NCBI GenBank assembly: GCA_032622095.1
Contig: CP136066.1
Span: forward strand, 201,584,978-201,648,977
Direction of reading: 5' to 3'
Length of the DNA: 64,000 nt
Origin: Siphonodentalium dalli
Taxonomy: Eukaryota > Mollusca > Scaphopoda > Gadilida > Siphonodentaliidae
Below the pieces are notes generated by a model. That model saw only the letters and a list, made by a program, of their open reading frames with translations. It was not told the DNA's origin and did no database searches. Positions 7,739 to 63,271 of the stretch are shown one piece after another (within the stretch, counting starts at the first letter, position 1; every line of letters begins with the position of its first letter). The position numbers and the translations under genes were made by a program.

Positions 7739-8338
7739 TTAAAGGGGTACTGTACGCCATTTTCAATAAATTCCCGGTGATAACAACGATCTATTATCGA
7801 TACTATATAGAAATATAAGTAATTTGAGTCGAAGATGTATTCTGTAAACGCTCAGGTTAATAGGCTATCTTAAAATTTAATAATTTAAAAGTTAATAATT
7901 TAATATAAATTGATTTTATGGCTCCAGCCATAAAATGGCGTCTCTTAAAATTGGAATTTCCGTGTACAAAACGTAATCAAATTATAATTGAGGGATACTG
8001 GATTAATAAAACAATTGCACACACGATCGTTTGAAACATTATGCTTATACGGGGAGAAAACCCAAGCCACTCATTGACTAGTGACCATACACTAACTTAA
8101 ATGAGTATATGGGACTACTAAGCATATAATATAATGTTTATTTGATTCATTTGGTTGAAAACTGTACAAAAATTACTCGACAACGACAATTTGTATTTTT
8201 GCATTCCGGTAAATTTGCCATCCGTAACAATACTTCGTACTCAACAGACTTTCAAAAAATGGAAATGTTGTTACCTTATTCTCCGACTCGGGGATTATAG
8301 AAACCAACAACAACATCTTGGGTACAGTACCCCTTTAA
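7739..8338. mobile_element. Family J TTAA-type element, 600 bp
   Basis: The ends are TTAAAGGGGTACTGTAC and its complement, each including TTAA. The interior is AT-rich with no coding potential. It shares this first stretch with family K (31706, 36174), which has a different interior. It ends 42 bp before exon 4. Confidence 0.78.
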
Positions 8339-8379
8339 GAGATTGCTCTTGTTATATGTTAACTTATTATTTGTTGCAG

Positions 8380-8470
8380 GTTCTTTTTGGCGCTGCGCCC
8401 TTTTGGACCATCGAAGGAATGTATTCTCCATAGTCACATAGTAACATTATACAGATGTGGTTCAAACCAG
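8380..8470 (+). CDS. Exon 4 of the unrecognised host gene
   Basis: This exon has 91 nt: one base completes the split Arg codon from exon 3, then 30 codons follow, ending in phase 0. The acceptor is TTTGTTGCAG and the donor is GTTTGT. It reads FFLALRPFGPSKECILHSHI then VTLYRCGSNQ. Without it, exon 3 (phase 2) could not join exon 5 (phase 0), so the phase logic supports it directly. It lies 42 bp downstream of a 600-bp TTAA-bounded element (7739-8338), so that insertion stopped just short of the branch-point and acceptor region. Confidence 0.74.
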
Positions 8471-8482
8471 GTTTGTTCTTAG

Positions 8483-8890
8483 TAAATTATTCTTCATAGT
8501 CACATAAAAGGTTCAATCGTTTTGTTCGGATTTTCCATTCTTGAGTTATTCATCTTTGTTTATCTGGAAATGTTGGCTTTTTGGTCTGTCCGATGTCTGT
8601 TCATGTCATAACTTAAACCGTTGTGCTCGGATCTCAATGTAATTTGGTATGGATGTTCACTACTATGAGAACATTCAATGGAAGGTTCAATCGTTTTGTT
8701 CAGATTTTCCATTCTAGAGTAATTCATGTTTGTTTATATGAAAATGATGATTTTTGGGTCCTGTCTGAGTATATAAGTCATAGGTTATAGGTTATATGTC
8801 ATAGGTTATAGGTTATAGGTATACCCATACTATGCAGTGTGCCACAAGGGGGTATGCACCGGACGACAGTCCATCTCTTGTTATGTACCT
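8483..8890 (+). repeat. Repeat-rich intron 4: duplicated 60-bp module and ATAGGTTAT run
   Basis: A module beginning AAGGTTCAATCGTTTTGTTC occurs near 8508 and 8680. It is followed by a short run of CATAGGTTATAGGTTATA. A tail at about 8820-8875 reading CCCATACTATGCAGTGTG resembles the tail of the repeat at 47640-47700. It may be a degraded retroposon 3' end, but the class is unclear. Confidence 0.5.
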
Positions 8891-9060
8891 CAGGAAAACA
8901 ACTGGCATCTCTGTGGAATCCTAGGCTACTTTATGGATGAGACAAGACACAGATGATTCTAATAACAACACAAATAGTTTTATATGATATAAAAATAGAA
9001 AAAAAGATGTGTTTTATGGATTTAATGATATTTTATAATTTTAATTTTAATTTTTTGCAG

Positions 9061-9245
9061 GCGTATGAACAGTCACATGTTATGTCAAGAGAATCACAGA
9101 TCATTGGTTTACTGCAGAAAATCGTCACTGAGCTGTATGATGGGGCGTCCCATTATAATGTTGCTGCATGTATGCGACAACATCAGCTTGAAACTCATCA
9201 ACTGAGATCTCGCCAGAGAGAAAACACAAGAAGACTGATCGAAAG
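9061..9245 (+). CDS. Exon 5 of the unrecognised host gene
   Basis: This exon has 185 nt, 61 codons plus AG. It follows a long pyrimidine tract ending TTTTTTGCAG and precedes GTAATT. It reads AYEQSHVMSRESQIIGLLQK, IVTELYDGASHYNVAACMRQ and HQLETHQLRSRQRENTRRLI, then E. It is strongly helical, with an amphipathic first half and a basic, Gln-rich second half that could be a coiled coil. It is the longest internal exon and the best-supported one. No family is recognised. Confidence 0.8.
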
Positions 9246-9387
9246 GTAATTATTTAAACTTTAAGTCTTATATTGAATTAAATGATTTAATGATTTTTTT
9301 GCCCCATGATGAAAGTGTACAATCGAAGCGGTAATGTAACGCAATGTGTCATAATTGAGGGAAGCCTGTACACTTCCAGGAAATGGA

Positions 9388-9825
9388 GCTCCGTGGTCCA
9401 GTGGTTAGCGCGTTGGACTTGTCTTCTCTGTCAACACAGCGAGGCGAGTTCGCGGCTGGCTGGTGGTCTGTTATGAGTTTCCACACAGCAGTGGCTTGGC
9501 CGACTTGAGCGATGTGCAATTGTTGGATTGTACACTGTTTGAATCTCGCGCCAAGTTGTGACCCTTGAGCAAGGTCGCTCGTACTGTGTCTGCTTTGCAC
9601 CACCCATGCATTACAAGGGTACCTGATAATGAGCAGTGAAAGATCTTGTCAGTATGCTAGCCATATGGTATCCTCGCATACTCCCGGCTGTACCTCCCCC
9701 TGTCCCCGGGGAGCAGTAGATGGTTACTGAATGTTCAGGCTCATCAGGGTAATAATTGTAAAACTTTGAGCGCTTTGGGCCTCATGGGAAAGGCGCTTTA
9801 TAAATGCTATACATTATTATTAATG
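9388..9825 (+). mobile_element. tRNA-derived SINE, about 438 bp
   Basis: The head GTGGTCCAGTGGTTAGCGCG matches a tRNA A box and D arm, and GGCGAGTTCGCGGC serves as a B-box-like element about 50 bp later. A long body follows, and the tail is GGCGCTTTATAAATGCTATA then ATTATTATTAA, the A/T-rich 3' end shared by many marine invertebrate SINEs. It lies in intron 5. No clear flanking direct repeat was found. Confidence 0.78.
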
Positions 9826-9839
9826 ACAGTTTGATGAGA

Positions 9840-10861
9840 CTGCATTAGACTCAGTATGCAGGATTTCCATTAGTACGGCTCAGTGTCTGTAGGATGGCCT
9901 CAATCCCCTCGCTGATGATTTGTGAGTCATACATGTACCTAAATTAAATCGCATTCTATCGTAGAAAATCTGGCTGTAATGAGAGTTCCATGGTTAAATA
10001 GAATGCTGGTGAAAAGGCACATCAATTCATCACTATGTTACCGGTACAAGGTCAAGAAATTATAAAAGCACCAAAACTACAACGTAATGTTTGGTGTGAC
10101 ATCAGAGAGTGGCGTTCTACATATGAAAGTGTCATGGTAACACCATAGAATGCCGGACTGCTGAGTATTGCACTAATCAACAATAATATACCAAGCCAGA
10201 TACAAACGCTTAAACAACGACGCACATTTTCACATTTTAGCGCCAAAGCGGATACGCACAATACTCATTTATATTTCATAACACGTGGGTTAAAACTCGG
10301 CCATAATATCAGTCCTCACTTACATTAGCAACGGATTGTGACCTAGTTTCGGGTGGCTTTCCTTGGGTTTTCTTGTTGAATCACTTTCATGCAAAAGTAA
10401 TTAATTGTAACGTATCACAAATCTTACTGGACATTGCGTCAAAAATAACAATAAAGAAAAAAACTCTACAATATAATATTAAAATCTAATATTTTATTTA
10501 ATTGCAGACGGCTATACTTTTCTCAGTCACTATTTCTGCTGGGATGTCCAATAACTTCAGTATTACCAGTCTGTTTGGAATGCATACTAGTGCACAAGCT
10601 ACAAGTTGCGTTCATGTAGTTTGAATGATTTCACCACTATAAATAGTTTCTGCAGACAATCCCTGAACTACATGTATGATGTCACAGTGCACAAATGACA
10701 GAATGAGCAATTTTTCAGTCAAATATATTATAGAAAGTTTTATAAAAGTTTTGACTGGACAACATCACAGGTATTCAAAAGACACGTCAAATGAGGTCAC
10801 TAGGTGCTAAATAGTTAACCTTCATAATTGCACATTCATCTTGTTGATGTCTTAATTCCAG
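9840..10861. other. Rest of intron 5, no feature seen
   Basis: AT-rich DNA without a recognised repeat family or coding pattern other than the exon that follows. Confidence 0.5.
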
Positions 10862-10969
10862 CACACCTTTCTTCAGCAGTGCCATTAAGATGGTTGTCTT
10901 CTATACATCATGGATCATTTATCATATTGATGCAGCACATTTCCCATTCGCACCAGGTGTCATAGTCAA
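10862..10969 (+). CDS. Exon 6 of the unrecognised host gene
   Basis: This exon has 108 nt with phase 2 at both ends. The acceptor is CTTAATTCCAG and the donor is GTGAGTATG, a near-consensus site. It completes a Ser codon and reads TPFFSSAIKMVVFYTSWIIY then HIDAAHFPFAPGVIV, leaving AA to be completed downstream. It carries the most hydrophobic segment of the visible protein, probably a buried helix. The next compatible exon found is almost 18 kb away, so other exons may have been missed between them. Confidence 0.74.
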
Positions 10970-10979
10970 GTGAGTATGT

Positions 10980-11590
10980 TCAGAAAATTAATCATAATTT
11001 CTGTCCAAAATAGAATTACGCATAATAATGTCTGTATACCTGAATAGGTATTACTCATTGTTAATAATTTTATAATTATCCAAAAATATATTAAGGCCAG
11101 ACAAAATTTATTTTCTGTTTGTCAGATGCCGCCCCCTCATAAAGATATGGCCTTTTGGGTGCTTTTTAAAATAAAAATGATAAATCATCCTTCTGCTGGA
11201 AGCCGTATCCCGATTAGAGCAAGCAACAACAACAACAACATCACCAACAGTAGATAGAAGGAAAAAGAAAATGAAATAATAATCATGTCTAGATCATTTC
11301 CATCTCATATTTTACAGTCCTGTTAAATGTCATACCCTTTCATGACCCTTCCAAAATCTCTAAAGTGGGTTAAAGGGGAGGGCCTACTGCCCTTCCAAAT
11401 CCTCTCAGGTCCACCCCGAAATCCCCAATAATCAGCGGTTCATATTTTCTTGAAAAAATCATCCTGATGCTCAGCTTCAAAGCACGATGTCCACAATCTC
11501 TGGCCATAAATTTTGCTGGACACATTTCAACTTGTATTTAATATTTATCCGTGTTAAATCTTATAATATTAAAGTTTTCTTTTTGGTTTG
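10980..11590. other. Start of the last intron, little structure
   Basis: Only a short (CAA)n run near 11224 stands out. No exon compatible with phase 2 was found. Confidence 0.45.
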
Positions 11591-11858: not shown

Positions 11859-12764
11859 AAGGGTTCATGGCAGGTTTCGCTCCAAAATACACCTAATAAT
11901 ATTTGCTTTGGAATTTTCCCCAGTATTGAAACAGGCTGAAAAATACCTGATCTACATGTACCTTTCTACGAGCATTGTATGTCCCAAATACAACTTCAAA
12001 CACAATGTACGGGCCCGAACAAAAACAGTTGTTACAGATCTCCATGTTGGTATGTTTCGTAGTGTTGAAACGATTAATCGACTAGTCGAAGTCGACGTGA
12101 TTATTAAATTAGTCGATCCCAAAATCTGCTAGTCGATTAGTCGAAAAAAAAGCACTACCTATGTGCTATCATGACAGCAGTGCCATTGCACGGCCATATT
12201 ATCACGTAATCTAAAAGCCTTATTGCATTGTTCCTTTAACAATGCCACTGCCATCAGTCATGCACGGGCGGTGAAATCCATGACCTGAACTGAACCCTAT
12301 GTATGCACGTGTAGGCGCGGTATCTTTTATTTTGATCATCACAGAAATGAAGTGTCGCTGCCGACTGAGCACTCTAGTTCGATGTGACGCAATTGACCAG
12401 TGATAACTTCTCACTGTGTAATACTAGAGTAATGATGGACCAAAATGGCTTGAATGATATACGAAACATAACTCGCGTAAACTGAATAGATTCTAATACC
12501 CATACCCCCTCCCCCGCGACGCGACATAGGGTGCCTACCCTTACCGAAATCATTAGCCATCTGTTAGCCATTCTTTAGCACTTGGAAGAGAAGGAATGAT
12601 GGCTTACTGATGGCTAGTAGTTTTCAGAGGATATGGATGGCTAATGCAAAATTTAGCCATCGAGGCTAGGTGATGGCTAGATGATGGCTTATTAGCCATC
12701 GCTTAGCCCTCCTATAGGCCGAAATATTTAAATGAGCTAAGCCATCGCTTAGCCCTCGATGGAT

Positions 12765-12920
12765 GGATGGCTAGTAGGCCGATGGCTAGTAACCCGATGG
12801 CTAGTAGGCTGATGGCTAGTAGGCGATGGCTAGTAAGCCGATGGCTAGTAGGCCGATGGCTAGTAAGCCGATGGCTAGTAGGCCGATGGCTAGTAGGCCG
12901 ATGGCTAGTAAGCCATCGGA
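12765..12920 (+). repeat. Tandem GATGGCTAGTAGGCC array
   Basis: About ten copies of a 14-15 bp unit (GATGGCTAGTAGGCC or GATGGCTAGTAAGCC) form the densest part of the left subterminal region of element 1. The open frame of MASRPMASNPMASR type is a product of this array. Confidence 0.85.
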
Positions 12921-13270
12921 TTGTTAGCCCTGGACATTTAGTGATGGCTATGTTATATAACTTGCTTCAGGAGGAATAACTCTTTGGCATCATCTATTTG
13001 AGAATGAATTATCTTTAAAATAATATGTTATATCATAAAAATAATTTTTTACCAAAATATTTAACAATGTCAATTATTTTTGTTATCTTTTGCCAAGTTT
13101 TCATCATAAATACAGTGGAAACGATTTGCAATTGTATCACTGGACACACGGACTGCATGGTATCTGGAATCATATGCATGCAACATCTTCACATTAGGCT
13201 GGGCCAGCCAAAGATTTCTGCAGATTTTTTGTCAAAATTCAAAAGAAAATAGTCTGGTCAAGATAGATCT

Positions 13271-13469
13271 TTAACCCTTCCTATATGAGAACTATATATG
13301 CTGGTGCAGCATTAAAGAACGTGGTTCCAGCTGAATTCTCTTATATATGCGAGTTTCCCATCTATAGGGATCAAGCCTTGTATATATAAGAGAATTTACT
13401 GGCTAGCTAGAGAATTGCATGGTACAGGATTTTCAAAAAATTTCAAGAAGCTCCCATCGGAATGGTTAA
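13271..13469. mobile_element. Family A TTAA-type MITE, copy 3, nested in element 1
   Basis: TTAACCCTTCC on the left and GGAATGGTTAA on the right surround one CTCTTATATATGCGAG hairpin. It sits inside element 1, which sits inside the hAT element, giving a three-level nest. Confidence 0.65.
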
Positions 13470-14940
13470 ATATGAATATGTTTTTTTCAAGATGTTTAAT
13501 GTGTCATATAATGCCCAATAAATTAGAAAATATAGTGCTGAGGATTGTACTTACCAATTTCCAGATTAATTTGTATATACATGCATGTATCTTAGTGGCA
13601 GCAGGATATTTTCTCAGAATCTCAGGCAGAATGTTTGATAAACATGCGGATTTCTGAGAGTTATTTCACAACTTTTAAAATTAGCAGGCTCAGCTATCTT
13701 GAAGCCATTACAGTTCTAGTCCAATGAATCTTAACTAAAGAAATCACAAGTTTATAAGACTGCTAAGAACATAAGTGTAAAAAAACTGGAACAAAAAACT
13801 TGAGCAGTGAATACAGACTAGCAGTTACAATTCAAATGTTGTTGAGTACAATATCCCATGATGCATTTATGCAGCCTCTATCTGGTTGGACCAACATATG
13901 GCAGCCATATGTCAGGTCTATGGCAGTCTCAGGACAGAAGGTCTTCTAACCATTAATATGACTTTGGTGAAGGCTAATAACATTCGAATGTTAAATATTC
14001 TCCAGTCTGATGGTTATCGATTAAATTCTTAACCACCAGTAATGATGGCTAGTGAATATAATTCCATGTTGTTAGCCATCGACTAACCATCACCTTAGCC
14101 ATCACCAGAAATTCTTCCTGATTGGATGGCTACCTTAGCCATCACACCCCTTCTTATTCTTCATGAGTGCTAATATAACTATAGTGATGGTTTATCTTAG
14201 CCATCATTGGTCTCTGATGGCTAAGCAAGGGCTTAGGGATGGCTTAATAAGCCATTCTGTTCGGTAAGGGTATTCAGAGAGACAATAGAACACACCCGAC
14301 ATCTCGTTAGCAAGACTTGCGAATGAGACTTGCCTATTTACTGGTTACCAGTGTCAATTTTGTTTAAATAAAATGTTTTTATTACCTGCATTCCCCAAAC
14401 CGTGAGATTATATAGAGGTTGCAGGAGAGCCGGGTTTAAGACATCAAATTGGGAGACTCACGGGCAAACGGGAGATTATATAGTTCACATTCTTTCCGTT
14501 TGAACGTTCTGAAATGAAGAGTTGGATTCTCAAAACTGCGATGCCACATGGCCCATTTCATTAGTCATATGGGCATAGAAACGGGAACTCTTAGAAGGGG
14601 TCCGACTAGTCGACTAGTAGTCGATTACATCTGGCGACTAGTCGATTCCTTAAAATCGCTAATCGTTTCAACACTAATGTTTCGAGATACCTCTTACAAA
14701 TTATGTCCACATAATTTTAGGATTGAATGAACCATGTCCTTTTAAATTGTATGCACTTGGGTTATACAACAGACATTTATGTCAAAATTATAGTCATTGT
14801 TTGTGTGCAACAATGTTTTTTCGCTAATTAGGTGGTATAATTAACCTGTACATCTGCTGGGGAGATTTTTGTCATAAAAATCTGTCTGCTGGGTAATTGT
14901 GTGAGCTAAGTAAGAATCAAAATAAAAACCTGCCTGTCCA

Positions 14941-15317
14941 GGGGGGGGGGGGGGGGTCGGAAACAATTTGCAGGCACGTATGCTGATTTTATTCCTTTCG
15001 ACCCTTGTTGGGACCCACCCACCCCCGCTTCCAAATTTTTTTCCGTTTTCGGCAGTTTTTTCACCTGACCATTTTTGGACACCCACCCCCCCTTTGAACA
15101 CTAAAACAGAGATTTGCGGGGGGAAATTCACTGTAAACAGCTGTAAATGAATTTCTGTGCATACTATTTGTAATGGATGTTCACATTGACATGTAAATAG
15201 GAACAGTTTTAAACCAAATTCATTGCAAAAACAGTCAAAAAGACTTGCAGGAAAAAAAAAATTTAATTGCAGAAAAAATTGTTTGTTGGTCCCATCGATC
15301 ACCCACTCACCCACCCA
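14941..15317 (+). mobile_element. Family U poly(G)-ended repeat, copy 1
   Basis: It starts with 16 G, then TCGGAAACAATTTGCAGGCA and CGTATG. It matches the reverse complement of 54141-54686 through GTTTTCGGCAGTTTTTTC and TGAATTTCTGTGCATACTAT. The right end is lost after CACCCACTCACCCACCC. The 161-codon minus frame at 14841-15326 is produced by this repeat. Confidence 0.7.
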
Positions 15318-15806
15318 GATAATCAACTTTGTGTGGCCTAATTACCAAGTACAACAATCCATTTTAAAACCATTAATTAACAATTAAATTAATTAAAACC
15401 ATTAGGGGCAATCAGCGTATTCAATTACCCATCTAAACCTTCTTAACAAAGAACATATTGAACTCTATTTTTGGTAATAACAATTATAACTCAGGCACTG
15501 ATTCCGATTCATTTTACGATTACTCAGATTAATCATTTGATAAGTGCCCGAGACCACCCCCTGATGTATATTGAAACAATTATTTCCACCTCCTACCACC
15601 CACCTTGTATCTATTTTAATGGATACTTAACATTCCTCAGAATTACCTCAGCTAGCTGACCCTAATGGAAATAAATGGGCCTCGTCCTGCTTATTATGTT
15701 GTCCCCGATAACATTCAGTCACATGACAGTGCACCCAATCTGATTTTCTATATTCTGCGCTCTTAATTTTACACAGCTTTAAATGATATTATGACATACA
15801 TTATAC
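15318..15806. other. Spacer without recognised feature
   Basis: AT-rich sequence with (TTAA)-rich words near 15370. No coding pattern and no match to families elsewhere in the window. Confidence 0.5.
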
Positions 15807-17086
15807 CCCTTACCAAAACCGAACGCCATTATTTAGCGTTTGCTTAGCGATTACCCTTAGCGTTTTCTTAGCGTTTCCTTAGCGTTCAAATGCATAAAAT
15901 AAACGCTAAGATGAATGGGGCAAACAAATGTTAAGCTTAGCGTTCAAATGCTATCTTAACGTTTGGTTAGCGTTTGGTTAGCGTGTATATAGGGTGAAAT
16001 ATTTATGAGCTTAGCGTTCGAACGCTAAGCTTAGCGTTTGAACGCTTACCTCATTTGCATATTGTTGGTATGTTGGCAAATATACTGTTGCAATTCCTTA
16101 GCGTTTCCTTATTCCTTAGCGTTTCCTTAGCGTTTCCTAAGCGTTTTCTTAGCGTTTCCTTAGCGTTCAAATATAATCATTTAAACGCTAATATTAACCC
16201 TCAAGTTACTGAATGGTACAGTCTTCTGGTTATGACTTAAAAGGCTGCTTAGAAATGCCTCTCCGTTTGCTCACACATATTTAGAATATGCATTTTTTTA
16301 AATGTTACAGTACCTTACATTCTTTTCCTAAAGATTCACTAACTCATTCACTGATTGTTGACTCTCCCAAAATATTCCTTCCTCATGGTGGAATTATGAA
16401 CTGTAGGCTACTCCAATTTCAGAATCAATAGAATTTATTCAAATATAATCAAATGATCTTAGCCTGATTTTCCTCTCATCTTCATATGCTATAATTACTG
16501 GGTGAAGGACAGTGTGAAATTCATCAAAACCTGGTGGTGACGTGCTATAAAAGATTGAGTGAAACATATATAGCAGGGTTTTGAAGTTTTTTAACTCTGT
16601 CTTTCACTCGGTCACAATAACATGTGAAGGCCAGAGGAAATTCAGGCTATAACAAAACAGTAATTAATATATAACATTCTATCCTGATCGAGTTCTTTTC
16701 TTTACTTTAGTGATTCATTTCTGAAAACAATAAAAGAAAAAATTAAGATTTCCAAGAATCATTGATGAAATTTCCTTCAATTTAACACAATTAAGCAACT
16801 TTACTCTGCATGCTTTCTTTGTTTTATGCAAAATGGTCCCCCACAGTTGTATTTGACAAACTAATTTTCAAGGACATCCCTTGCGATCAGGCACAATCAC
16901 CTGCAGGTCTTCTGATGGAGTTACTTTACACAAAATTATTTGTCTAGCTGTGCGGTCATAAACTTGGCATTAATATATACTTACACGATGTACCAAACAA
17001 TGTTGCACATTCTTATGACGCATGAAAAGGTATGATATCATACATGCTGGACAGTATGACATCCATATGAGACAAGAATAACTTAC

Positions 17087-17225
17087 CCTTCATTAGACTT
17101 GAAATTATCATACGAAATCTTCATCCGACTTCTGTCATTTGTACACTTTGAGCATATTTTAGCATTAACGTCAGTCTCCTTCATGATGTCCCACATCTCT
17201 TTTTTGGAGACCGAAATTATGAATT
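17087..17225 (-). CDS. Minus-strand exon in element 2, Cys-bearing protein (downstream exon)
   Basis: Read on the minus strand, the acceptor is CAATTTTCAG and the donor is GTAAGTTATTC. The 139 nt carry two bases, 45 codons and two bases: FIISVSKKEMWDIMKETDVN, AKICSKCTNDRSRMKISYDN and FKSNE. It holds a CSKC pair that could bind zinc. The first two bases complete the Glu codon left by the exon at 18650-18771, so the phases agree. The onward join is unclear; a 27-nt exon at about 16986 and an early stop are both possible. The family is not recognised. Confidence 0.62.
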
Positions 17226-18008
17226 CTGAAAATTGAAGAATTAATATAATGATAACTATTTAAAGGCTTCGTACATGTATCACCTGATTATTGATCAATT
17301 TCATGATTGGCTTATTTATTACAACTGTAATGCATAGCATGACATATTTCCTGATTTGCAGTTTGGAAAGGGTGCAGTGCTGAAAGTTTGAATGGATGTT
17401 AATTAATGGATGAAATAGTTTGTATGTGGATATCCTTCTTCCCATGCTGGTATATTATAGTAGTACCAAAGGACATTACAATCCAATAATTGGTACTGAA
17501 GCTACATTCATACAATGCAGAATATCTGTACAGGGTTACAGGCTGCATGAGCATAGTGTTTCCAAAGTCAAACATAGGGCATATGTTCTTCTTATTAGGT
17601 GCACTACAGCCAACTTATAGAATATATGTGTTTTATGTGTATTGTCAAACCATGAAATATTATCTGCTGAGAAAATTTATAACTCATCAATTCTGCTGTT
17701 AAGTTAATTTTTTTGGTAATACCCAAAATTTAATATGGAGTTCATATATTCATTATAAGTAGAAATCCCATACAACAAAGCATATAAATGACAGATAAAT
17801 GTTTAGCACAATGGACATTCTATATTGAGGGGACCTGGTAAATTAACCTATTAATTGTACTGTATTTAAAGTATGAAGCTTAATTACCCTTCTAATATTG
17901 CTATCTTTACTAAATTTGACAGAGATAATTGTTTTGACTCCTTGCACTGGTACATTTCAAGTAGATTTCCTTACTGTATATAGTCATGCAGTTTCTTCTC
18001 AAATTTTC

Positions 18009-18046
18009 TGTGACTGTTTCTTTGAAAAAGAAATTGTGATCTCTGA
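18009..18046 (-). pseudogene. Decayed paralogue of the 17087-17225 exon start
   Basis: On the minus strand, TTTCAATTTCAG is followed by codons for EITISFSKKQSQKI and then a stop. This parallels EFIISVSKKEMWDI of the intact exon. It is an old internal duplication of the acceptor and the first part of the exon. Confidence 0.4.
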
Positions 18047-18649
18047 AATTGAAATAGAATAAGTCATAGTTAAAGCTATGCTGGTGTTATTCAAGCCATA
18101 TTTTTATTTTAAAAATTGTAGGTAGAAATTTAATTAGCACTTCAAAGTTAATTCGCATGCATGGGCATCATGCATATATATATACACCCATAGTAAGTTT
18201 CATTTAAATATTGCAATATATCAGGGGTGGCATCAGTATTTCCCCAATGCAGGGGCTACTTTATAATACAATTGACCCCTCCCCTGATTCCACCCCTACA
18301 ATATATTAATATGTAGATTAAACCCTGGATATGTGAGTCATTTGTTTTTATTCAAATTGGTTTATCCTTATGAGATTGATATATTAAATCCCATTTATAC
18401 AGGGTTGTGCATGGTTTAAAGGGAATCCAAAAATCTGTGAGAGAGTAGTTGAATTGTGGAGGGCCTAGCTAGCTTGTATGGTTCGATCCCTGTAGCTAAG
18501 ATTTAATATTGCCTTTGTGTGTGACTGCATGAAAGATGATCATGCCAATATTAATTGTTCTGTACATTCTCTCTATATAAAATATCATATTTTGAAGTTT
18601 CATGAGGCTATAAGCAACATAAATTAATTTGAATTATGAAAGTACTTAC

Positions 18650-18771
18650 CAGATACACAAATAATGGTTTCCCGGCCATTCAGGTGCTGTTGATTCTGTG
18701 AGACTTCATAAATTAATCCATCAAAAACACAGAAAAATGATCTCTTTTCACATTGCTTTTTAGAACAAAAT
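18650..18771 (-). CDS. Minus-strand exon in element 2 (upstream exon)
   Basis: Read on the minus strand, the acceptor is TTTATACTCAG and the donor is GTAAGTACTTTC. The 122 nt carry one base, 40 codons and one base: FCSKKQCEKRSFFCVFDGLI then YEVSQNQQHLNGRETIICVS. Three Cys residues (FC, QC, FC) suggest a metal-binding fold. It must be preceded by an exon ending in phase 2, which I could not find. A TE gene or a captured host gene are both possible. Confidence 0.6.
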
Positions 18772-19607
18772 CTGAGTATAAAGCTGCATAAACATGTACA
18801 TCATTCATCAGTGAGAGACAAACTGGCCAAAAACAAAGAGTCAACACTGGGCCACACATCTGTTACATAGTTTAAGAAGTATCAAATTCCAAGCTTATGG
18901 GCCAGTTCTCCCAACTTAACAACTTTAAATTGCCCCCAGGGGATTGTCATGCAGACTCAATGATTGCATAAGGCAGTGATTTAATTTTATGTATAGGCAT
19001 TATCTGGTTCTTAGAATATTTTAGGGGATGCAGAGATCTGGATTGAACTAGCAAGTTCAGTGAGACAAATTCATTACTTGAATTAGTTAAGCAAATATTC
19101 TCGCACTTTAATTTAGAATTGGGGTAGTTTCAATTCATATTAATTATACAATTTTAAATGTATCTAAAATAGCCACATTTTCTGTCCCTATTCAGAGAGA
19201 ATAATTAAAGAAAAATATTTTCAAGTGATAGAAACTCATATTGACTGGTCTGTCTGACTTTAAATATAATTATTATTTTATATAAAAAAAAAAAATAATA
19301 ATTAATAATGTTCATAAAATCACTTCTTTTGATAATGTATAAAGCACAGATGAGCCAATATTTCTTACAACAATAGATTTTCCCCCCACTTTTCCTTGTT
19401 GAACATGGACTTAATTAGTTTAATTACAAGAGATTCTCTGCTTGCACTGGCTTGCATGAAAGAAACAAAATTCTCTGTATTCTGTGCACTATACATTAAA
19501 TATTAGTGTTTGAAAAAAATCCCATAAACATATTACACTTATTTAGTGATTTTTTTTAAAGAAAGGGTATACAGTGGTACATGTATGGTACGTACAATGT
19601 ACATGTA

Positions 19608-20128
19608 AAACCTGCCAGACATGTCAAATATTTATCTCTTGTTCAGTTAAATGTGTGGAGTTTTCAAAGTATTTCCAAGACAACAAAATGTACTCAATAT
19701 ATGTATTGTAAAAAAAATATTTTTTGAATTCTACATCATTGTTCAGTTTAACTAATTCTGGCCATTCGCATAGGTAGATTAAATTGTCAAAAACATTAGT
19801 CACATATATAGGAGATATGAAAACAAAAAGAAACAAATTACCAGGTACTTGTTGTTGGAAGATATTAGACAGTAGTACATGTACAGGTACAGGTACATAT
19901 GTCATACCTGCCAGAATTGTCAAATATTATCGCTTGTTCAGTTAAATGTACATGTCTGGAGTATTCAAATTATTTCCAAGGCAAACTACCAGTACATGAA
20001 CCTATTAAAAATGTATTTAAAAAAATATTTTCATAATTCTACATCATTTTCTAGTGTAAAGAATTCTGGTCATTCTCGTATGTAGATTGTCAAAAACAAG
20101 TCACATATATAGGAGATATGAAGTTTTG
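19608..20128. repeat. Two direct repeats of about 220 bp inside element 2
   Basis: Copies at about 19612-19826 and 19903-20124 share TTGTTCAGTTAAATG, ATTCTACATCATT and CACATATATAGGAGATATGA. Small gaps separate them. The 99-codon minus frame at 19624-19923 spans the first copy and is not convincing as a gene. Confidence 0.75.
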
Positions 20129-20814
20129 ATAAATTTTTCCATAAAATTTACCTGAACTCGACTTAGTTTATTTCTGAATTTTATTTTTATTTCTCAAATG
20201 CACGGTCATGCAAGAAACACTAAGAACCATTTACTAGCGTTTATGAAAGGCTGAAAATCGCTAAGGAATACAATTTACAAAGAAACGTTCAGACCTATCA
20301 ATGCTTATAATAACAGAGAAGAGATGTTAGCGTTTTTCTTAGCGTTTAACTTTCAAAACGCTAAGGAATAAGAAAATCGCAAATATATTAACGTTTTTCT
20401 TAGCGTTTAACTTTCTAAACGCTAAGGAATAAAAAAAATCGCTAAGGATCATCGATGCTTAACGTTCAAACGCTAACAGAAGCGTTTTCTTAGCGTTCGA
20501 ACGCTAAGAAATGTCTTCTCATAACGTTCAAACGCTAACAAATTGCCCCAAACGCTAAGGAAACGCTAAGAAAACGCTTAATAAGCGATTATGTTCGGTA
20601 AGGGACATCACATTACATATAAACCAATTTTACTGATGTTATACACACAATTTATACAAGTTGTACTATTTTTCTGTAACATTGCACTGTCAACATGTAC
20701 ATGTATATGAATGTTATCAAAATAAAATCTAATCTAATTGCTTGGAATGTTTTACAACAGTATCTTTATTTGAAGATACAATACAGGTTTGTGTATTACA
20801 TGTTTGACGTTTAA

Positions 20815-34575: not shown

Positions 34576-34783
34576 AGTATTTCACATAATGTATTGGGGA
34601 CATGACAATCTACGGAATTGGGTGGAATGCGGAACAGAACGAACAATTTGCTGAACAGAATTCGAAATTGCGTGGGACGGCCGATATCTCGAGAAATATT
34701 GCACGAAGTGGACTCATTTTGGTTTCTAACGAAAGGCCGATATTTGCCCCAGACCAATATATTAACCTCGCCGGGTGCAGGAC

Positions 34784-35250
34784 AAGTGATACTACTCTCG
34801 GAAAAAAGTCAAGTGATACTCTAATCTCGAGTCAACTGATACCTTCCTGAGACAAATGATACCTTTTATTTTTTAATTGCAATTATAATTTCTCTTGTCA
34901 AATGTTTATAGAACTGGACTCAAAATTGACTCAGAATTGGGTATCACTTGTCTCGGGTATCACTGGACTCGGAATTAGGTATCACTTGTCTGGGGTATCG
35001 CTGAACTCGGAATAAGGTATCACCTAATTGTCTCGGGTATCACTGAACTCGGAATTAGGTATCACTTGTCTCGGGTATCACTGAACTCGGAATTAGGTAT
35101 CACTTGTCTCGGGTATCACTGAACTCGGAATTAGGTATCACTTGTCTCGGGTATCAATGAACTCGGAATTAGGTATCACTTGTCTCGGGTATCACTGAAC
35201 TCGGAATTAGATATCACTGAACTCGGAATTAGGTATCACTTGCCTAGTTG
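34784..35250. repeat. 38-bp minisatellite with inverted flanking motifs
   Basis: About eight units of 38 bp (GGTATCACTTGTCTCGGGTA then TCACTGAACTCGGAATTA) run from 34939 to 35245. Three or four inverted single motifs (GACAAGTGATAC type) lie at 34784-34864. The array could fold back on them. Confidence 0.85.
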
Positions 35251-44541: not shown

Positions 44542-44562
44542 GCAGTGGAGAGGGACATGTCT

Positions 44563-44736
44563 CTATTCCGAATGTTCGCTATTCCGAAGGTTCACTATTC
44601 CGAATGTTCTCTATTCCGAATATTCGCTATTCCGAAGGTTCACTATTCCGAAGGTTCGCTATTCCGAAGGTTCACTATTCCGAAGGTTCACTATTCCGAA
44701 GGTTCGCTATTCCGAAGGTTCGCTATTCCGAAGGTT
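44563..44736 (+). repeat. Left array: 11 copies of a 16-bp word
   Basis: The unit is CTATTCCGAAGGTTCA with G/A and G/T variants. The overlapping short frames of FRRFTIPKVRYSEG type come from this array. Confidence 0.93.
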
Positions 44737-45140
44737 GTTATTTTAAAGGTTAATTCTATATTCTAAAGTACTGAAAGAGTTCTCTATCACGAAGACTCTT
44801 TTTATTAAGGAAATAACTTAAAACATTAAAACAATAAACGTGATTTTTTTTCGCGGGTTTCCTTGATATTTAATGTCATTGCGTATGACGTTATTTATAA
44901 ATACATATTCCGGCCACGCAGCCCAAACAATTGCTATGTTTCCATACGATTTAATGTCATTGCGTATGACGTTTATCTCAATAATCTTAGAGGCAAGAAT
45001 TGGCCAGCTAAAGGCGGATTATAACAGTGGGGCTATAATGCTTAATGAATACTGGAGCGCCATAACATACTGCGTAGCAGAATATCGCTGAATAGACTGT
45101 ATGAGATGATCCTAACTGCAATTGTGACTTTCATTGACTT

Positions 45141-46137
45141 TAAAGGCCCAATTAATTTTCGAGTCACCGATTATTTGTGTTTATAGTGCCTTTATGTACG
45201 GTTTTAATAACAATTTATGCCATAAAATATGATTAAAATACTATAATTCATCACCATTTGAAACGTCTGTGTCTCAGAAGATGCCCATAGAGAAATAGAA
45301 AACAGCTGAAATCATAGGAAGATTCCCCCGTTATGGCGCCCAGAATGCAACATAATTCAAACTAAAAATGTATTTTCAATGGAAGGGGTATAACTCTATC
45401 TTTAAAATATAGAGTTATTCCCCTCCATTGAAAATAATACACTTTGCGCAACAAAACCAGATGAAACTTACGCACAAAACACATAAGTAACTCACAAAAA
45501 ACAACATGTTCACATAAGGATTAACTGTCATGTGGACTGTTTTATGGAGATGTAACGGTGAGGTAAGTGGACATAACTTGTGTAAAACCCGAAGGGTTTT
45601 ACATACAAGTTATGACCACTTACCTCACCGTTACATCTCCATAAAAATAGTCCACATGACAGTTAATCCTTATATTTATATACATTTAGCGAAGAAGCCA
45701 CTTTTGTAAATATATTTAAATCGAAAAGTGTATCGTGACAAGATCAGCCCAAAATACCCAATAGCACCCTTGCCAAAAGTTAATAGGAACAATTTCTCTT
45801 CATATTGAAACCCGATGATGTATTAAGTCAATCCTGCGCGAGTCCAAATGCTCCCAAAACATTACGCCTTCGTCTTTCCAAACCTAATGACGTATCGATG
45901 GTGTCATTAGCTTGGTGTTATGAGGCGTTGCGCATTCACCGAGAAATAACTGCAACTAGCCACGTGGGCGCCGACCAATCAGAATTCTGGATTTAGTGAT
46001 GACAACACTTAGTGTGTAAATATAGTTGATTACACCGGTTAAGTTGACAATACAATGTTAGAGAGCTTCCTATTTCAAATGGTATATAATATGGCATATA
46101 TTTTATATGTGATCTGGGGGTTCGAAAATTAAGTCAT
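45141..46137. repeat. Possible nested repeat W
   Basis: TAAAGGCCCAATTAATTTTC on the left resembles the inverse of GTTCGAAAATTAAGTCATC on the right. A further copy starts at 63809 (AAGGCCCGCTTAATTTTCG). The right terminus is incomplete, so the boundaries are uncertain. Confidence 0.4.
45363..45675. repeat. Two successive hairpins
   Basis: The first (45363-45453) pairs TTTTCAATGGAAGGGGTATA with TATTCCCCTCCATTGAAAA. The second (45513-45675) has arms of about 75 bp, from AAGGATTAACTGTCATGTGG to the centre AAAACCCGAAGGGTTTT. The second is almost perfect. Confidence 0.85.
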
Positions 46138-46354
46138 CGTGTTTTCATCTTTCCATAATAAACGATAAACTGATACTATCTTCTTGTTATTAATAATCGA
46201 TATCTGGGACAATTTGGGAATTAGAATTGGGTGTATAAATGTGCTACATGTATATGTTAATACTAGCGTAATAGTATTTTTCATTCCTCGTGTGGTTTTT
46301 GTGGGAAGGGTGCAATTTTTTTTTCATTTCTGGTTAAATACGCCCAGAATAGAA

Positions 46355-46501
46355 AACCTTCGGAATAGCGAACCTTCGGAATAGCGAACCTTCGGAATTG
46401 CGAACCTTCGGAATAATGAACCTTCGAAATAGAGAACCTTCGGAATAATGAACATTCGGAATAGCGAACCTTCGGAATAATGAACCTTCGGAATAGAGAA
46501 C
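46355..46501 (-). repeat. Right array: 9 inverted copies of the same 16-bp word
   Basis: AACCTTCGGAATAGCG units are the reverse complement of the left array. They lie 1.6 kb away and directly inside the right end. Confidence 0.93.
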
Positions 46502-46846
46502 CCTACCCGCAGTGGAGGCTGTCAGACTAGTTAATTATCTTGGCAGTAACTTAACATTCAAATTTGTGTAAACAAGCTAGGTTTCAAATGATGCCTGCAT
46601 AAAGATACAGATAATTCATATTGGCTAATTATATTTAAGTTTGATACTGATAGCATGTGTTTACAGGGTGGGTGGGGAATTAAGAGTTAATATCTGAATA
46701 CCTAGGCCCATTCATACCATGTCAGATTAATCTTCCCGAGAAGATGATTAAATGAGTCTCAATAAATTCATTGAAGAATTTTTTTTTTTAATTTAATTTT
46801 TTTTTTTTATTAATAATAACAAAAATATATCAATATTTTTTTGCTG

Positions 46847-49107: not shown

Positions 49108-52100
49108 TAGTGTAGGTAGTTAGCGTTTTGATCAATACAAGTCGGATAAAAGCGCCATTTTTTAATATCTTGTTGAACAGAATTTCTAGTCTAGGAATTT
49201 TCTCAAGAACCAACTTTTTGACCGACGTAGAGCCGAAAATTCAAGATGGCGTCCAAGATGGCTGCCAGTTTGACGGTGGTACACCTAATAGTTTTGCTTC
49301 TCAATTGTATATGTTAAGCATAACGAATTCCACCCTATTATCTAAGAATGGTGGTTATCGAATAACAGCCCCCACTTTTAGTTGAAAAATGGCCACAATT
49401 ATTCAAGATGGATGCCAAAATGGCGGCCAAAACATGGAAATGTTTGTTTTTTTTCCTTATTTTTGTTAAAATACTTTGCAATTTTCGAGATAATATAAGA
49501 GAAGATATCAACAATGTGTTGATTATTCGATGGAATAACCTCTGTGAAAGAGTCATATACACTAAAGGCGAAGTAGTATTGTTTGGTCTGGTAGAAATGT
49601 GAGGTAGAATATGTGCTATGTAAAATGAGCAAAATTATTCTCAGACAGGGTTTCATTCTGTAAATGCTCAGAAACGAACCATGAATGGCTCCGATGTCTT
49701 CAATTATATTTGCGACACTACTATATGGTTGGATCGATTGAATAAAAATTTTAATATCGAGATCTTTAGCAGATGATTAACCACGAAATTAGGAAACACC
49801 AAATGACAAAACCCATAATCGTCAAACTCAATTTGGTTCTCAAAAGAGGAACACATGGAAGGTATTCTGCAACACATCTTCATCATCCGGCCTCGTATAC
49901 AAATTACAAATACTTTGAAATTTAAAACTGCACTTTGTTTTAATAAACTGAATTGAACAATTCACTTCTCACAACCACATCTGCACAACTTCGTACATGG
50001 GAGTTTGCTTCTTGAACATTTTCACCTGGAACAAACCGATTTGCAAACACATTTAATCAACTCTGTGCACTCTCTAGCTGCTTCTGGGTTGTCATTCATA
50101 CAGTAACAAAAGAACCGTCATTCAATTTCCATCCAAAGAATTCAGGTGCTGTAAACTTTGCATCTACTGTGGGGCTTACAGTCCAGAAACTCCAGATACC
50201 AGCCTGATATATATAGCACGATTTTCACTTGAAACATCAAGAACCACACACGGATTCCTCGTAATTGGCATCAAGCATTATGCGAGCTAAGCTTTCCAAT
50301 CATCCCAAAATTGCGCTTACCCTTACCAAGGAAAAAGGAAGTTGAGTCGCATCCTGATATTGGATGGAATATTGGAAGTACAGTTAATTTTGTTCAGCCC
50401 ATTGAATTGCACATATCAACTATGTTGTAGATAACATGGGATTTATACTTCTCGAAAGACAAACAGTTTCAAATATTTGCATGGAAGAAGCATAGCATGC
50501 AGCTGTCCCAACATTATCACGATAATATGTGTCAGAAGTATGAACAATAATCGATGAATTATCGGTTTGTGGCATATGAAATATATGTTCTTCTCACACA
50601 AAATCCAGCGGTTCCCCCATATAAAAGGAGGGGAGCTAATAAATGCGACTTCCTAAGCTGCATGATGGTCCCATCCGATTCAAACTACATATACACTGCA
50701 GAGCCAAATCAAAAGGTCGAGTGTAAGGTGTTCGACGGGGGTGCTCTGATACACTTACTGACACCTGAAGTCGGGCTTGCCTTCTCAATGTATATCAGCA
50801 CAACGTTTATTCCATATATATGTTATGATGCAGCTCGCAGATTGTAGAAGAATTGACTTGGTTTGGACAGGGAAATAGAGGGTATTATCAAAACAGGAAC
50901 GTGAGAGAAACGTGGTTGCGGCACTCGATGTAAGGTTGGGGCTTACCACAAAAATTCCACCGAATTGGAATGACTTTCTAAGAAACACCACCAACAGGCA
51001 ATAATTTTTTGCATGTGTCAATGAATGTCTCGTTAAATTGGAAACCCTAACATGGAAAACCATCTTCGTAACAGAGGATGATAACACGGTCCTAATGTGG
51101 AACCTATTCTCTTTGGATGTACATATGAAGAAAATGACAGTAGATTGGTCGGACATATATCTCATATGCTACAAACTCCTTATTCATCGATTAATGTTCG
51201 TACTGTTGACAAGGATATTATCGTGACTCTGTTGTGACATCTGCATGCTATGCTACTCCAATGCAAAGAATTGAAAATGTGTCTTTCGGAAAGTCTAAAT
51301 CCCATGTTATCCGCAACATAGTTGATATGTACAATTCAATTGGGCTCAGAAAATTCAACTGTGCTTCCAATATTCCATCATATCCATGCGATATCAGGAT
51401 GCGACTCAACTTCCGTTTTCTTTGGTAAGGATAAGCGCACATTTTGGGATGCTTGAAAAGCTTACCCAGAGCTAACAGAATGCTTGATATTAATTACGAG
51501 GAATCCTTTTGTGGTACTTGATCCTTTTGTGGTACTTGATGTTCCATCACCACCATTTGAGTGTATTTAACAGTTCGTCATGATTGTTTATGACAAATCT
51601 GCGAACCTGATCTCAGTTAATGAAGATAGACATGAAATGTTCAGCAAAGGCCGCGCACATGAACAGTTACCACCAAAGAAATCGTGCTACTAGTATATAT
51701 CAGGTTGGTATTTGGACTTACATAGTAAGATAGATGCAAAGTTTCCAGCATCTGACTCACTGGGGGAAAACAGTTTCACAAGAATCGATTCTATCGCCTT
51801 TCCGGTTCTGTCTCTATCGAACTAAGTCCCGACTCTTTCGCGATTTTAAACAAATAGTTTCCAAGTTTTGACCGCCATTTATACACGTAATGTCAAAACA
51901 GAACTATTTTCTAAACAAATATCCATATATTAGGTCTTTGCTCATGCTTATTGATGATCATAATGCGAAATCAGCTATTTTTGTGCACACTTAGAGGCAT
52001 GATGCGTTTTTGTGCATTTCCTATTTAAATTAAGCAGCAATTTGATAAGTTTATCGGCCTCAACACTTTTAGTTGGGGTGGAACATGTATCACTGTATGA

Positions 52101-57786: not shown

Positions 57787-60700
57787 ACACTTTAAATCGT
57801 GTTGGGTAAAATTTTACCCAACAAAATGGAGCATATAGCACCACACGAACATATAGCACCACACGAATGTATAGCACCACACGAACATATAGCACCACAC
57901 GAACATATAGCACCACACGAACATATAGCACCACACGGACATATAGCACCACACGAACATACAGCACCACACGAACGTATAGCACCACACGAAAGTATAG
58001 CACCACACGAACGTATAGCACAACACGAACATATAGCACCACACGAACATATAGCACCACACAAACGTATAGCACCACGCGAACATATAGCACCACACGA
58101 ACGTATAGCACCACACGAACATACAGCACCACACGAACGTATAGCACCACACGAACATACAGCAACACACGAACGTATAGCACCACACGAAAGTATAGCA
58201 CCACACGAACGTATAGCACAACACGAACATATAGCACCACACGAACATATAGCACCACACGAACGTATAGCACCACGCGAACATATAGCACCACACGAGC
58301 ATATAGCACCACACGGACATATAGCACCACGCGAACGTATAGCACCACACGAACATATAGCACCACACGGACATATAGCACCACACGAACGTATAGCACC
58401 ACACGAACATATAGCACCACACGAACATATAGCACCACACGAACATATAGCACCACACGAACGTATAGCACCACACGAACATATAGTACCACACGAACAT
58501 ATAGTACCACACGAACATATAGCACCACATGAACATATAGCACCACAAGAACATAACACGAACATATAGCACCACACGAACATATAGCACCACACGAACA
58601 TATAGCACCACACGAACATATAGCACCACACGAACGTATAGCACCACACGAACATATAGTACCACACGAACATATAGCACCACACGAACATATAGCACCA
58701 CACGAACGTATAGCACCACACGAACATATAGCACCACACGAACATATAGTACCACACGAACATATAGCACCACACGAACTTATAGCACCACACGAACATA
58801 TATTACCACACGAACATATAGTACCACACGGACATATAGTACCACACGAACATATAGCACCACACGAACATATAGCACCACACGAACATATAGCACCACA
58901 TGAACATATAGCACCACACGAACATAACACGAACATATAGCACCACACGAACATATAGCACCACACGAACATATAGCACCACGCGAACATAACACGGACA
59001 TATAGCACCACACGAACATATAGCACCACACGAACATATAGCACCACGCGAACATATAGCACCACACGAACGTATAGCACCACACGAACATAACACGGAC
59101 ATATAGCACCACACGAACATATAGCACCACACGAACATATAGCACCACGCGAACATATAGCACCACGCGAACATAACACGGACATATAGCACCACACGAA
59201 CATATAGCACCACACGAACATATAGCACCACGCGAACATAACACGGACATATAGCACCACACGAACATATAGCACCACACGAACATATAGTACCACGCGA
59301 ACATATAGCACCACACGAACATATAGCACCACACGAACATATAGCACCACACGAACATATAGCACCACGCGAACATAACACGGACATATAGCACCACACG
59401 AACATATAGCACCACACGAACATATAGTACCACGCGAACATATAGCACCACACGAACATAACACGGACATATAGCACCACACGAACATATAGCACCACAC
59501 GAACATATAGCACCACGCGAACATATAGCACCACACGAACGTATAGCACCACGCGAACATATAGCACCACACGAAAGTATAGCACCACACGGACATATAG
59601 CACCACACGAACATACAGCACCACACGGACATATAGCACCACACGAACGTATAGCACCACACGGACAAATAGCACCACACGAACGTATAGCACCACACGA
59701 ACATATAGCACCACACGAACATATAGTACCACACGAACATATAGTACCACACGAACATATAGCACCACATGAACATATAGTACCACACGAACATATAGCA
59801 CCACATGAACATATAGTACCACACGAACATATAGCACCACATGAACTTATAGCACCACACGAACATATAGTACCACATGAACATATAGTACCACACGAAC
59901 ATATAGCACCACATGAACATATAGCACCACGTGAACTTATAGCACCACATGAACTTATAGCACCACACGAACATATAGTACCACATGAACATATAGTACC
60001 ACACGAACATATAGCACCACATGAACATATAGCACCACACGAACGTATAGCACCACACTAACATATAGCACCACACGAACATATAGTACCACACGAACAT
60101 ATAGTACCACACGAACGTATAGCACCACAAGAACGTATAGCACCACACGAACGTATAGCACCACACGAACATATAGCACCACACGAACATATAGCACCAC
60201 ACGAACATATAGCACCACACGAACATAGAGCACCACACGAACATATAGCACCACACGAACGTATAGCACCACGCGAACATATAGCACCACACGAACATAT
60301 AGTACCACACGAACATATAGTACCACACGAATGTATAGCACCACACGAGCATATAGCACCACACGGACATATAGCACCACACGAATATATAGTACCACAC
60401 GAACATATAGCACCACACGAACATAACACGAACATATAGCACCACACGAACATATAGCACCACACGAACATATAGCACCACACGAACATAACACGAACAT
60501 ATAGCACCACATGAACATATAGCACCACACGAACATATAGCACCACACGAACATATAGCACCACACGAACGTATAGCACCACGCGAACATATAGCACCAC
60601 ACGAACATATAGTACCACACGAACATATAGTACCACACGGACATATAGTACCACACGAACATATAGCACCACACTAACATATAGTACCACACGAACATAT

Positions 60701-63271
60701 AGCACCACACGAACATATAGTACCACACGAACATATAGCACCACATGAACATATAGCACCACACGAACGTATAGCACCACACGAACATATAGCACCACAC
60801 GAACATATAGCACCACACGAACGTATAGCACCACGCGAACATATAGCACCACACGAACATATAGTACCACACGAACATATAGCACCACATGAACATATAG
60901 CACCACACGAACATATAGCACCACACGAACATATAGTACCACAAGAACGTATAGCACCACACGAACATATAGCACCACACGAACATATAGCACCACACGA
61001 ACATATAGCACCACACGAACGTATAGCACCACACGAACATATAGTACCACACGAACATATAGTACCACACGGACATATAGTACCACACGAACATATAGCA
61101 CCACACGAACATATAGTACCACACGAACATATAGCACCACACGAGCCTATAGCACCACACGAACGTATAGCACCACACGAGCATATAGCACCACACGAAC
61201 GTATAGCACCACACGAACATATAGCACCACACGAACATATAGTACCACACGAACATATAGTACCACACGAACATATAGCACCACATGAACATATATCACC
61301 ACACGAACATATAGCACCACACGAACGTATAGCACCACGCGAACATATAGCACCACACGAACATATAGCACCACACGAACATATAGCACCACACGAACAT
61401 ATAGCACCACACGAACGTATAGCACCACACGAACATATATTACCACACGAACATATAGTACCACACGGACATATAGTACCACACGAACATATAGCACCAC
61501 ACGAACATATAGCACCACACGAACATATAGCACCACACGAACGTATAGCACCACATGGACATATAGCACCACACGAACATATAGCACCACACGAACATAT
61601 AGCACCACACGAACATATAGTACCACACGAACATATAGTACCACACGAACATATATTACCACACGAACATATAGTACCACACGGACATATAGTACCACAC
61701 GAACATATAGCACCACACGAACATATAGCACCACACGAACATAACATGAACATATAGCACCACATGAACATATAGCACCACACGAACATATAGCACCACA
61801 CGAACATATAGCACCACACGAACGTATAGCACCACGCGAACATATAGCACCACACGAACATATAGTACCACACGAACATATATCACCACATGAACATATA
61901 GCACCACACGAACGTATAGCACCACACGAACATATAGCACCACACGAACATATAGCACCACACGAACGTATAGCACCACGCGAACATATAGCACCACACG
62001 AACATATAGTACCACACGAACATATAGCACCACATGAACATATAGCACCACACGAACGTATAGCACCACACGAACATATAGCACCACACGAACATATAGC
62101 ACCACACGAACGTATAGCACCACGCGAACATATAGCACCACACGAACATATAGTACCACACGAACATATAGCACCACATGAACATATAGCACCACACGAA
62201 CATATAGCACCACACGAACATATAGTACCACACGAACGTATAGCACCACACGAACATATAGCACCACACGAACATATAGCACCACACGAACATATAGCAC
62301 CACACGAACGTATAGCACCACACGAACATATAGTACCACACGAACATATGGTACCACACGGACATATAGTACCACACGAACATATAGCACCACACGAACA
62401 TATAGTACCACACGAACATATAGCACCACACGAGCATATAGCACCACACGAACGTATAGCACCACACGAGCATATAGCACCACACGAACGTATAGCACCA
62501 CACGAACATATAGCACCACACGAACATATAGTACCACGCGAACATATAGTACCACACGAACATATAGCACCACACGAACATATAGCACCACACGAACATA
62601 TAGCACCACACGAACGTATAGCACCACACGAGCATATAGCACCACACGAACATATAGCACCACGCGAACATATAGCACCACACGAACATATAGTACCACA
62701 CGAACGTATAGCACCACACGAACATATAGCACCACACGAACATATAGCACCACTCGAACATATAGCACCACACGAACATATAGCACCACGCGAACATATA
62801 GCACCACATGAACATATAGCACCACACGAACATATAGCACCACACGAACGTATAGCACCACACGAACGTATAGCACCACACGAACATATAGCACCACGCG
62901 AACATATAGCACCACACGAACGTATAGCACCACACGAACATATAGCACCACACGAACGTATAGCACCACACGGACATATAGCACCACACGAACATATAGC
63001 ACCACACGAACATATAGCACCACATGAACGTTTTACCCATTGTTGGGCAATGTATTTACTCAACGCAGGGTGAAGATTTACCAAATATTAATTTGCGGGT
63101 ACAAAAAAATCACCCAACGCATGCAGAAGAAAAATTAATATTGGGTAAATTGTTACCCTGTATTGAGTAAATACATTGCCCAGCTTTGGGTAAAATTTAC
63201 CCAACGTTCGCGTGGTGCTATATGTACCATTGTGTTGGGTAAAAATTTACCCAACGCGATTTAGAGTGTAT
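57787..63271. mobile_element. Element V: CACTYTAAATCG-ended transposon holding an 18-bp array
   Basis: The ends are CACTTTAAATCGTGTTGGG and, in reverse, CACTCTAAATCGCGTTGGG, with TA on both sides. Each end contains a self-palindromic stretch around GTTGGGTAAA/TTTACCCAAC. Inside both ends lies the CATATAGCACCAC word; at the left it is expanded to about 5.2 kb. The right inner part (63031-63195) is a large hairpin of GGGCAATGTATTTACTCAA type. CACT ends and a 2-bp TA duplication leave the superfamily open. Confidence 0.78.
57832..63029 (+). repeat. 18-bp satellite array, about 290 units
   Basis: The unit is ATAGCACCACACGAACAT, with a few recurrent variants (AACGT, GGACAT, CACGCG, CACATG, ATAGTA). 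Eleven short units of 11 bp lack TAGCACC (near 58555, 58926, 58991, 59092, 59175, 59240, 59377, 59460, 60425, 60490 and 61743). A 144-bp higher-order repeat (8 units) is clear at about 61890-62180. The unit has no stop in all three minus frames and two plus frames, which explains open frames up to 912 codons. Confidence 0.97.

Follow-up and report, generated by a model that had tools for sequence, protein, structure and literature searches.

Can two related transposons in one genome keep the same tips and carry entirely different repeated words beside them? The question is raised by two elements in a 64,000-nucleotide stretch of Siphonodentalium dalli DNA (GenBank assembly GCA_032622095.1, contig CP136066.1, positions 201,584,978 to 201,648,977 of the forward strand; hereafter the window, numbered from its first letter). 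The elements, E1 (12538-14270, 1,733 base pairs (bp)) and E2 (15807-20604, 4,798 bp), stand 1.5 kb apart and are treated, like their arrays and flanks, as unstranded. A sequence-only reading of the window had given them these coordinates and had described common ends, an inner block at a like relative place and, at both ends of each element, a word of its own; all of this is borne out below. The word of one element is replaced in register by that of the other at paired sites, and a changed DNA-binding protein would probably account for the switch.

Each element fills both ends with its own word

All four element tips are CCCTTACC, a sequence that occurs 5 times in the window when both strands are counted; CCCTTACCGAA stands at three of the four ends and CCCTTACCAAAACCGAA at the left end of E2. 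The fifth CCCTTACC, at 50320, lies within a long inverted repeat (~50225-51500) of another family and is coincidental. When the window was scanned for the tip with up to 2 mismatches, 19 places were returned, and beyond the four ends none of them had words in the next 49 bases. Several of these places are TTAAC-flanked ends of another repeat, and no third copy was found.

The words behind the tips are sharply partitioned. With both strands counted, AGCCAT occurs 33 times in E1 and once in E2, and AGCGTT 32 times in E2 and never in E1; likewise, the longer TAGCCATC is found 24 times in E1 and not in E2, and TTAGCGTT 27 times in E2 and not in E1. The lone AGCCAT of E2 (18094) is in the interior, outside its ends, and neither element holds the word of the other at either end, so that the words are not mixed within elements. 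The two words, also written out as TTAGCCATC and TTAGCGTTT, had been described as keeping TTAGC and changing the rest. The change of the remainder stands, as the paired sites below show. A more accurate notation for the word of E1 is [TC][TA]AGCCATC, since CTAGC forms are frequent on the left side of that element, and each element also contains minor variants (TTAGCCCTC and TTAGCACTT in E1, TTAGCGATT in E2).

Word counts and tandem repeats outline the arrays. The left word array of E1 (12553-12932) holds words in both orientations and includes a 15-bp tandem array of 10 copies (12766-12914), and the right array spans 14044-14256. The left array of E2 (15833-16191) contains runs of 11-bp period, and its right array covers 20234-20590. 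Same-strand steps of 11 bp between words number 3 and 4 on the two strands of E1, and 7 and 2 on those of E2.

Such densities are not expected by chance. The 450-bp ends contain 17 (E1 left), 7 (E1 right), 16 (E2 left) and 11 (E2 right) word copies, whereas 1000 first-order Markov resamples of each end never contained more than 2. When the commonest 8-mer was counted instead, the observed value was reached in 0, 0, 0 and 2 of 1000 resamples (same order), and a separate run gave resample maxima of 12 and 18 at the E2 ends; this control is not clean for the E2 right end. After removal of 8-mers with fewer than three different bases, no resample out of 1000 reached it at any of the ends. We also compared every [TC][TA]AGC site within the two 450-bp ends of each element (43 for E1 and 45 for E2, some being overlaps from the opposite strand). 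Pairwise agreement between sites was 0.55-0.78 in E1 and 0.47-0.72 in E2 at the four tail positions, against 0.26-0.36 and 0.25-0.41 at the seven positions after the tail. The tail therefore behaves as part of the word.

Common blocks and in-register replacement of the word

A BLAST search of the window aligned the right ends of the two elements with 41 of 51 bases identical (E 3.5e-7), the module at 14220-14270 in E1 having its counterpart at 20554-20604 in E2, both on the minus strand. In the 40 columns past the 11-bp tip there are 30 matches, and the next-best place in E2, on either strand, gives 25. This module is the sole BLAST match between E1 and E2, and the interiors are thus unrelated at BLAST sensitivity. 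An inner block on the plus strand is also common to both: TATAGG..GAAATATTTA..TGAGC in E1 (12713-12737) and TATAGG..GAAATATTTATGAGC in E2 (15988-16010), the E2 block (GAAATATTTATGAGCT) being 2 bp shorter. Its GAAAT lies 184 bp from the left end in E1 and 190 bp in E2, and words flank both blocks at matching places. Judged by eye only, the E1 block looks promoter-like. Together with the right ends, the inner block extends the resemblance of the elements beyond their 8-bp end.

Seven word sites have an unambiguous partner in the other element: the right-end module provides four of them and the surroundings of the inner block three. At all seven, base 6 of the word, the one after T[TA]AGC, is a C in E1 and a G in E2. 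Differences fall on 18 of 28 tail positions, 2 of 35 core positions and 7 of 40 non-word columns in these blocks; for tails against non-word columns Fisher's test gives p = 1.2e-4, with the reservation that sites within one element are not independent. Adding three left-tip sites, paired by order and by hand, brings the tail differences to 24 of 40; base 6 is then G at 10 of 10 sites of E2 and C at 9 of 10 sites of E1. In two site pairs, 12564/15844 and 14248/20582, base 6 is the sole difference (CATT vs GATT).

Flanks, coding content and family placement

E1 is flanked by a 2-bp target-site duplication TA (12536-12537 and 14271-14272) and E2 by AC (15805-15806 and 20605-20606), and no longer flank match was found for either at the lengths tested (3-9 bp). 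A search over the junction found no empty site of E1 or E2 in the window, the joined flanks matching only themselves. E1 is nested inside a hAT-like element that spans 12060-14676, has inverted TAGTGTTGAAACGATTA at its ends and is bordered by the 8-bp direct repeat ATGTTTCG (12052 and 14677); E1 is therefore a separate, later insertion.

In stop-masked translations of all six frames, neither E1 nor E2 gave a match to any Pfam domain, Transposase_21 included, with E values up to 1 considered, and both elements therefore look non-autonomous. The curated Pfam cut-off was reached by none of 10 single fragments, a joined two-exon guess and the six masked frames each of E2 and E1; sub-threshold matches were Borrelia_REV (0.15), DUF6709 (0.17, E1 fragment) and Zn_ribbon_IFT122 (0.14, the joined guess). 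On the minus strand of E2, two exon-like stretches (17086-17220 and 18650-18770) have splice-like borders, and one contains a C-x2-C motif; neither gave a Pfam match above the cut-off, and they could belong to a captured gene or to a gene of the element. E2 also contains a direct duplication of 76% identity (19568-19821 and 19866-20122). Within E1, a 100-bp stretch (13300-13404) recurs with 74-80% identity near 11.7, 21.7, 24.7, 25.3, 30.1 and 56.3 kb and is probably a small nested repeat.

The flanks narrow the choice of superfamily. VANDAL elements are Mutator-like (MULE), with longer target duplications of the 9-bp type, and do not fit the 2-bp flanks; nor does hAT, whose 8-bp duplication is not seen around E1 or E2. 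Tc1/mariner elements insert at TA, with which the AC/AC flanks of E2 disagree. ISL2EU elements make a 2-bp duplication and carry YqaJ/transposase genes; the flanks fit, and no coding domain was detected in E1 or E2.

Both elements show the short direct and inverted subterminal repeats of the CACTA superfamily. All four tips start with CCCTTACC and not with CACTA, the tip mark of plant CACTA (En/Spm) elements, while the two marks of the animal TRC type, tips starting CCC and a 2-bp target-site duplication (TA/TA and AC/AC), are found in both. The CCC tip mark of the animal TRC elements, a part of the CACTA superfamily, was proposed from three species: a 2-bp repeat stands beside 7 of 14 SmTRC1 copies, and the Tribolium and Aedes elements also start with CCC (PMC1636069). 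Hydra Spongebob was assigned to the animal CACTA relatives by its CCC tips and 2-bp duplication (PMC4298943). E1 and E2 resemble all of these in tip and target duplication, and differ from the TRC elements of PMC1636069, which carry Transposase_21, in having no Pfam match. Because the plant tip mark is absent and Transposase_21 gave no match, as non-autonomous copies would be expected to, we would call them only CACTA/TRC-like, a label based on their ends, and do not file them as members.

A probable change of binder and its alternatives

We put a probability of roughly 0.6 on the reading that E1 and E2 are non-autonomous representatives of two sub-lineages of one CACTA/TRC-like family, and that a TnpA-like protein of changed specificity docks on their words. 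Plant CACTA elements have a binder of the subterminal repeats, TNPA, and a transposase that is conserved together with the tips (PMC2613891). By analogy, common tips with different words would mean that the accessory binder changed in the two sub-lineages and that the cutting end stayed the same. The family would then be one of cut-and-paste DNA transposons with animal CACTA/TRC-like ends (CCC start, 2-bp duplication, word arrays), and one transposase, or two closely related ones, would cut the tips of both elements. The words, often spaced by 11 bp or about one helical turn, would dock a TnpA-like accessory protein that binds DNA and is provided by an autonomous relative. At the split of the lineages the specificity of this binder may have gone from T[TA]AGCC(ATC) to T[TA]AGCG(TTT) or in the reverse direction, or both may derive from a third state; the sites of both ends would have followed by selection at individual sites and local tandem duplication. 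The sequence-only reading had proposed that protein and word co-evolve; the wholesale switch is real and a changed binder explains it best, while no such protein was found and the co-evolution is something we infer. A stronger statement is offered only tentatively, at somewhat less than even odds: that two sister lineages of one genome have become mutually unreadable, the docking word having been rewritten in place, one site after another, at both ends with tips, spacing and inner block fixed, and that the one-base C to G switch and the tail changes track a changed binder and cut each lineage off from the machinery of the other.

Several points weigh against the changed-binder reading. The sample is two elements in one window. 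With no Pfam domain detected, neither the family nor the binder is shown by protein. A 2-bp flank match at both elements has a chance probability of about 1/256 with equal bases, which is not negligible. The comparison of the cores is circular, since the core defines the sites, and the conserved blocks were chosen for conservation; the right end and the inner block are the sole source of the non-word columns. Finally, automatic alignment shifts two of the E2 left-tip pairings by one step relative to the pairing by hand; the tails then differ at 22 of 36 positions, and base 6 is still different at 9 of 9 sites.

It is possible, though unlikely, that one protein reads only T[TA]AGC in both elements and that the tails are simply carried along, made uniform by tandem duplication and end-to-end copying with the protein unchanged. 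The core and the 11-bp spacing are indeed common to E1 and E2, and the 15-bp tandem array of E1 and the 11-bp arrays of E2 show that duplication does happen. However, the tails are uniform although the spacers within arrays vary, and the switch is also present, at both ends, at sites in conserved non-array context. Copying between the ends might seem to be indicated by a 30-bp exact inverted match of the E2 left array to the right array, but 25 of 300 spacer permutations reach this length, leaving that route of word spread unsupported.

Less probable still is that the words are not for transposase docking and are the sites of an anti-silencing factor of the VANC kind encoded by the element, or were replaced to evade silencing by small RNAs. 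VANC words occur in tandem repeats, vary between related VANDALs and are recognised by related proteins, and escape from RNA interference is discussed there as speculation (PMC5735166); moreover, the E2 word contains a CpG that the E1 core word lacks. VANC sites, on the other hand, are also found in introns and intergenic regions (PMC5735166), whereas the words of E1 and E2 concentrate in both subterminal regions beside the tips, as in CACTA elements. That E1 and E2 are unrelated and resemble each other in tips and words by chance or convergence is very improbable. Their different lengths, GC contents (0.38 in E1, 0.33 in E2) and BLAST-dissimilar interiors would fit such an origin, but it is opposed by the identities at the right ends, within and past the tip, and by the nearly equal placement of the inner block.

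Outside searches and other features of the window

The right-end module pattern matched one stretch in viral contigs, which is coding-looking, of phage type and free of either word, and was taken as chance. The inner-block pattern had 0 matches in viral contigs and 2 in prokaryote genomes (cyanobacteria), where it is a coincidence of a ribosome site plus ATG, again without either 8-9-base word. Neither collection thus yielded a relative by these patterns. Rfam gave no match at gathering scores, a 62-residue putative exon had no match in PDB, and no Pfam match above cut-off was obtained for 9 open reading frames of the window outside E1 and E2 or for the 3 forward frames of 8001-11000.

Another element of the same design lies at ~44551-46508, with 16-bp CTATTCCGAAGGTTCG arrays inverted at both ends; its 9-bp direct repeat GCAGTGGAG, at 44542 and 46509, makes it MULE-like by duplication length. 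At ~34780-35243, a short stretch stands between GGTATCAC words that are inverted relative to each other, and its right side has a 38-bp tandem array. An 18-bp minisatellite of ~293 copies, with several frames open, occupies 57832-63029, and near 36.7-39.5 kb and 40.1-43 kb there is a duplicated unit, ~3.43 kb apart, with repeated open reading frames and repeat arrays.

Comparison with known systems

The sequence-only reading knew of no described case within one family. This does not hold: a word switch between related transposons is already known in kind from soybean, Chenopodium and Arabidopsis. In soybean, the subterminal motifs of Tgm1 and of the Tgmt* group differ at six positions within one species; the authors propose two subfamilies and pose as a question to test whether the repeats and tnpA-like binders co-evolve (PMC2613891). 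Like E1 and E2, these elements have conserved tips and repeats partly common and partly changed, in two types within one species; unlike them, they are plant elements with CACTA tips, a 3-bp duplication, a motif of ~17 bp and a known transposase (PMC2613891).

The Chenopodium CACTA element Jozin has one 12-bp word throughout both ends; across four species this word takes the form TATTTGTAACTA, TATTTGTAACGG or TATTTGCGTCAC, with TATTTG kept (PMC8978399). Here, too, one family keeps a fixed part of the word and changes the remainder uniformly at both ends, and a word-like tail of the tip changes as well; however, the Jozin words differ between species and not within one genome, and the element has CACTA tips and is autonomous with Transposase_21 (PMC8978399). 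In Arabidopsis VANDAL elements, related VANC proteins act on different words, that of VANC21 being established by chromatin immunoprecipitation with sequencing and electrophoretic mobility shift assays, and that of VANC6 deduced from methylation loss and backed by in-vitro binding to a motif-dense region (PMC5735166). The likeness to E1 and E2 is that related elements have different short repeated words, which in the VANC case are read by related proteins and spread by tandem duplication; the difference is that VANC acts in anti-silencing, its words not being shown as docking sites for cleavage, and that these words are also intronic and intergenic (PMC5735166).

In the portions of the papers on TRC elements and Spongebob available to us, no element-private word switch like that of E1 and E2 is seen (PMC1636069, PMC4298943), and no animal case was noticed among the literature matches listed, a weak absence with subscription papers outside the scope. 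What is new here is the setting, with animal-type ends and two lineages adjacent to each other, together with the comparison of paired sites one base at a time. Recovery of the binder and its words for several lineages of one genome would provide a natural series on the joint change of a protein and dozens of its sites, the question left open by the soybean study (PMC2613891), and would show the pattern known from plants in elements whose ends are of the animal type. At present E1 and E2 add one further pair to the known cases, and an unusually clean one.

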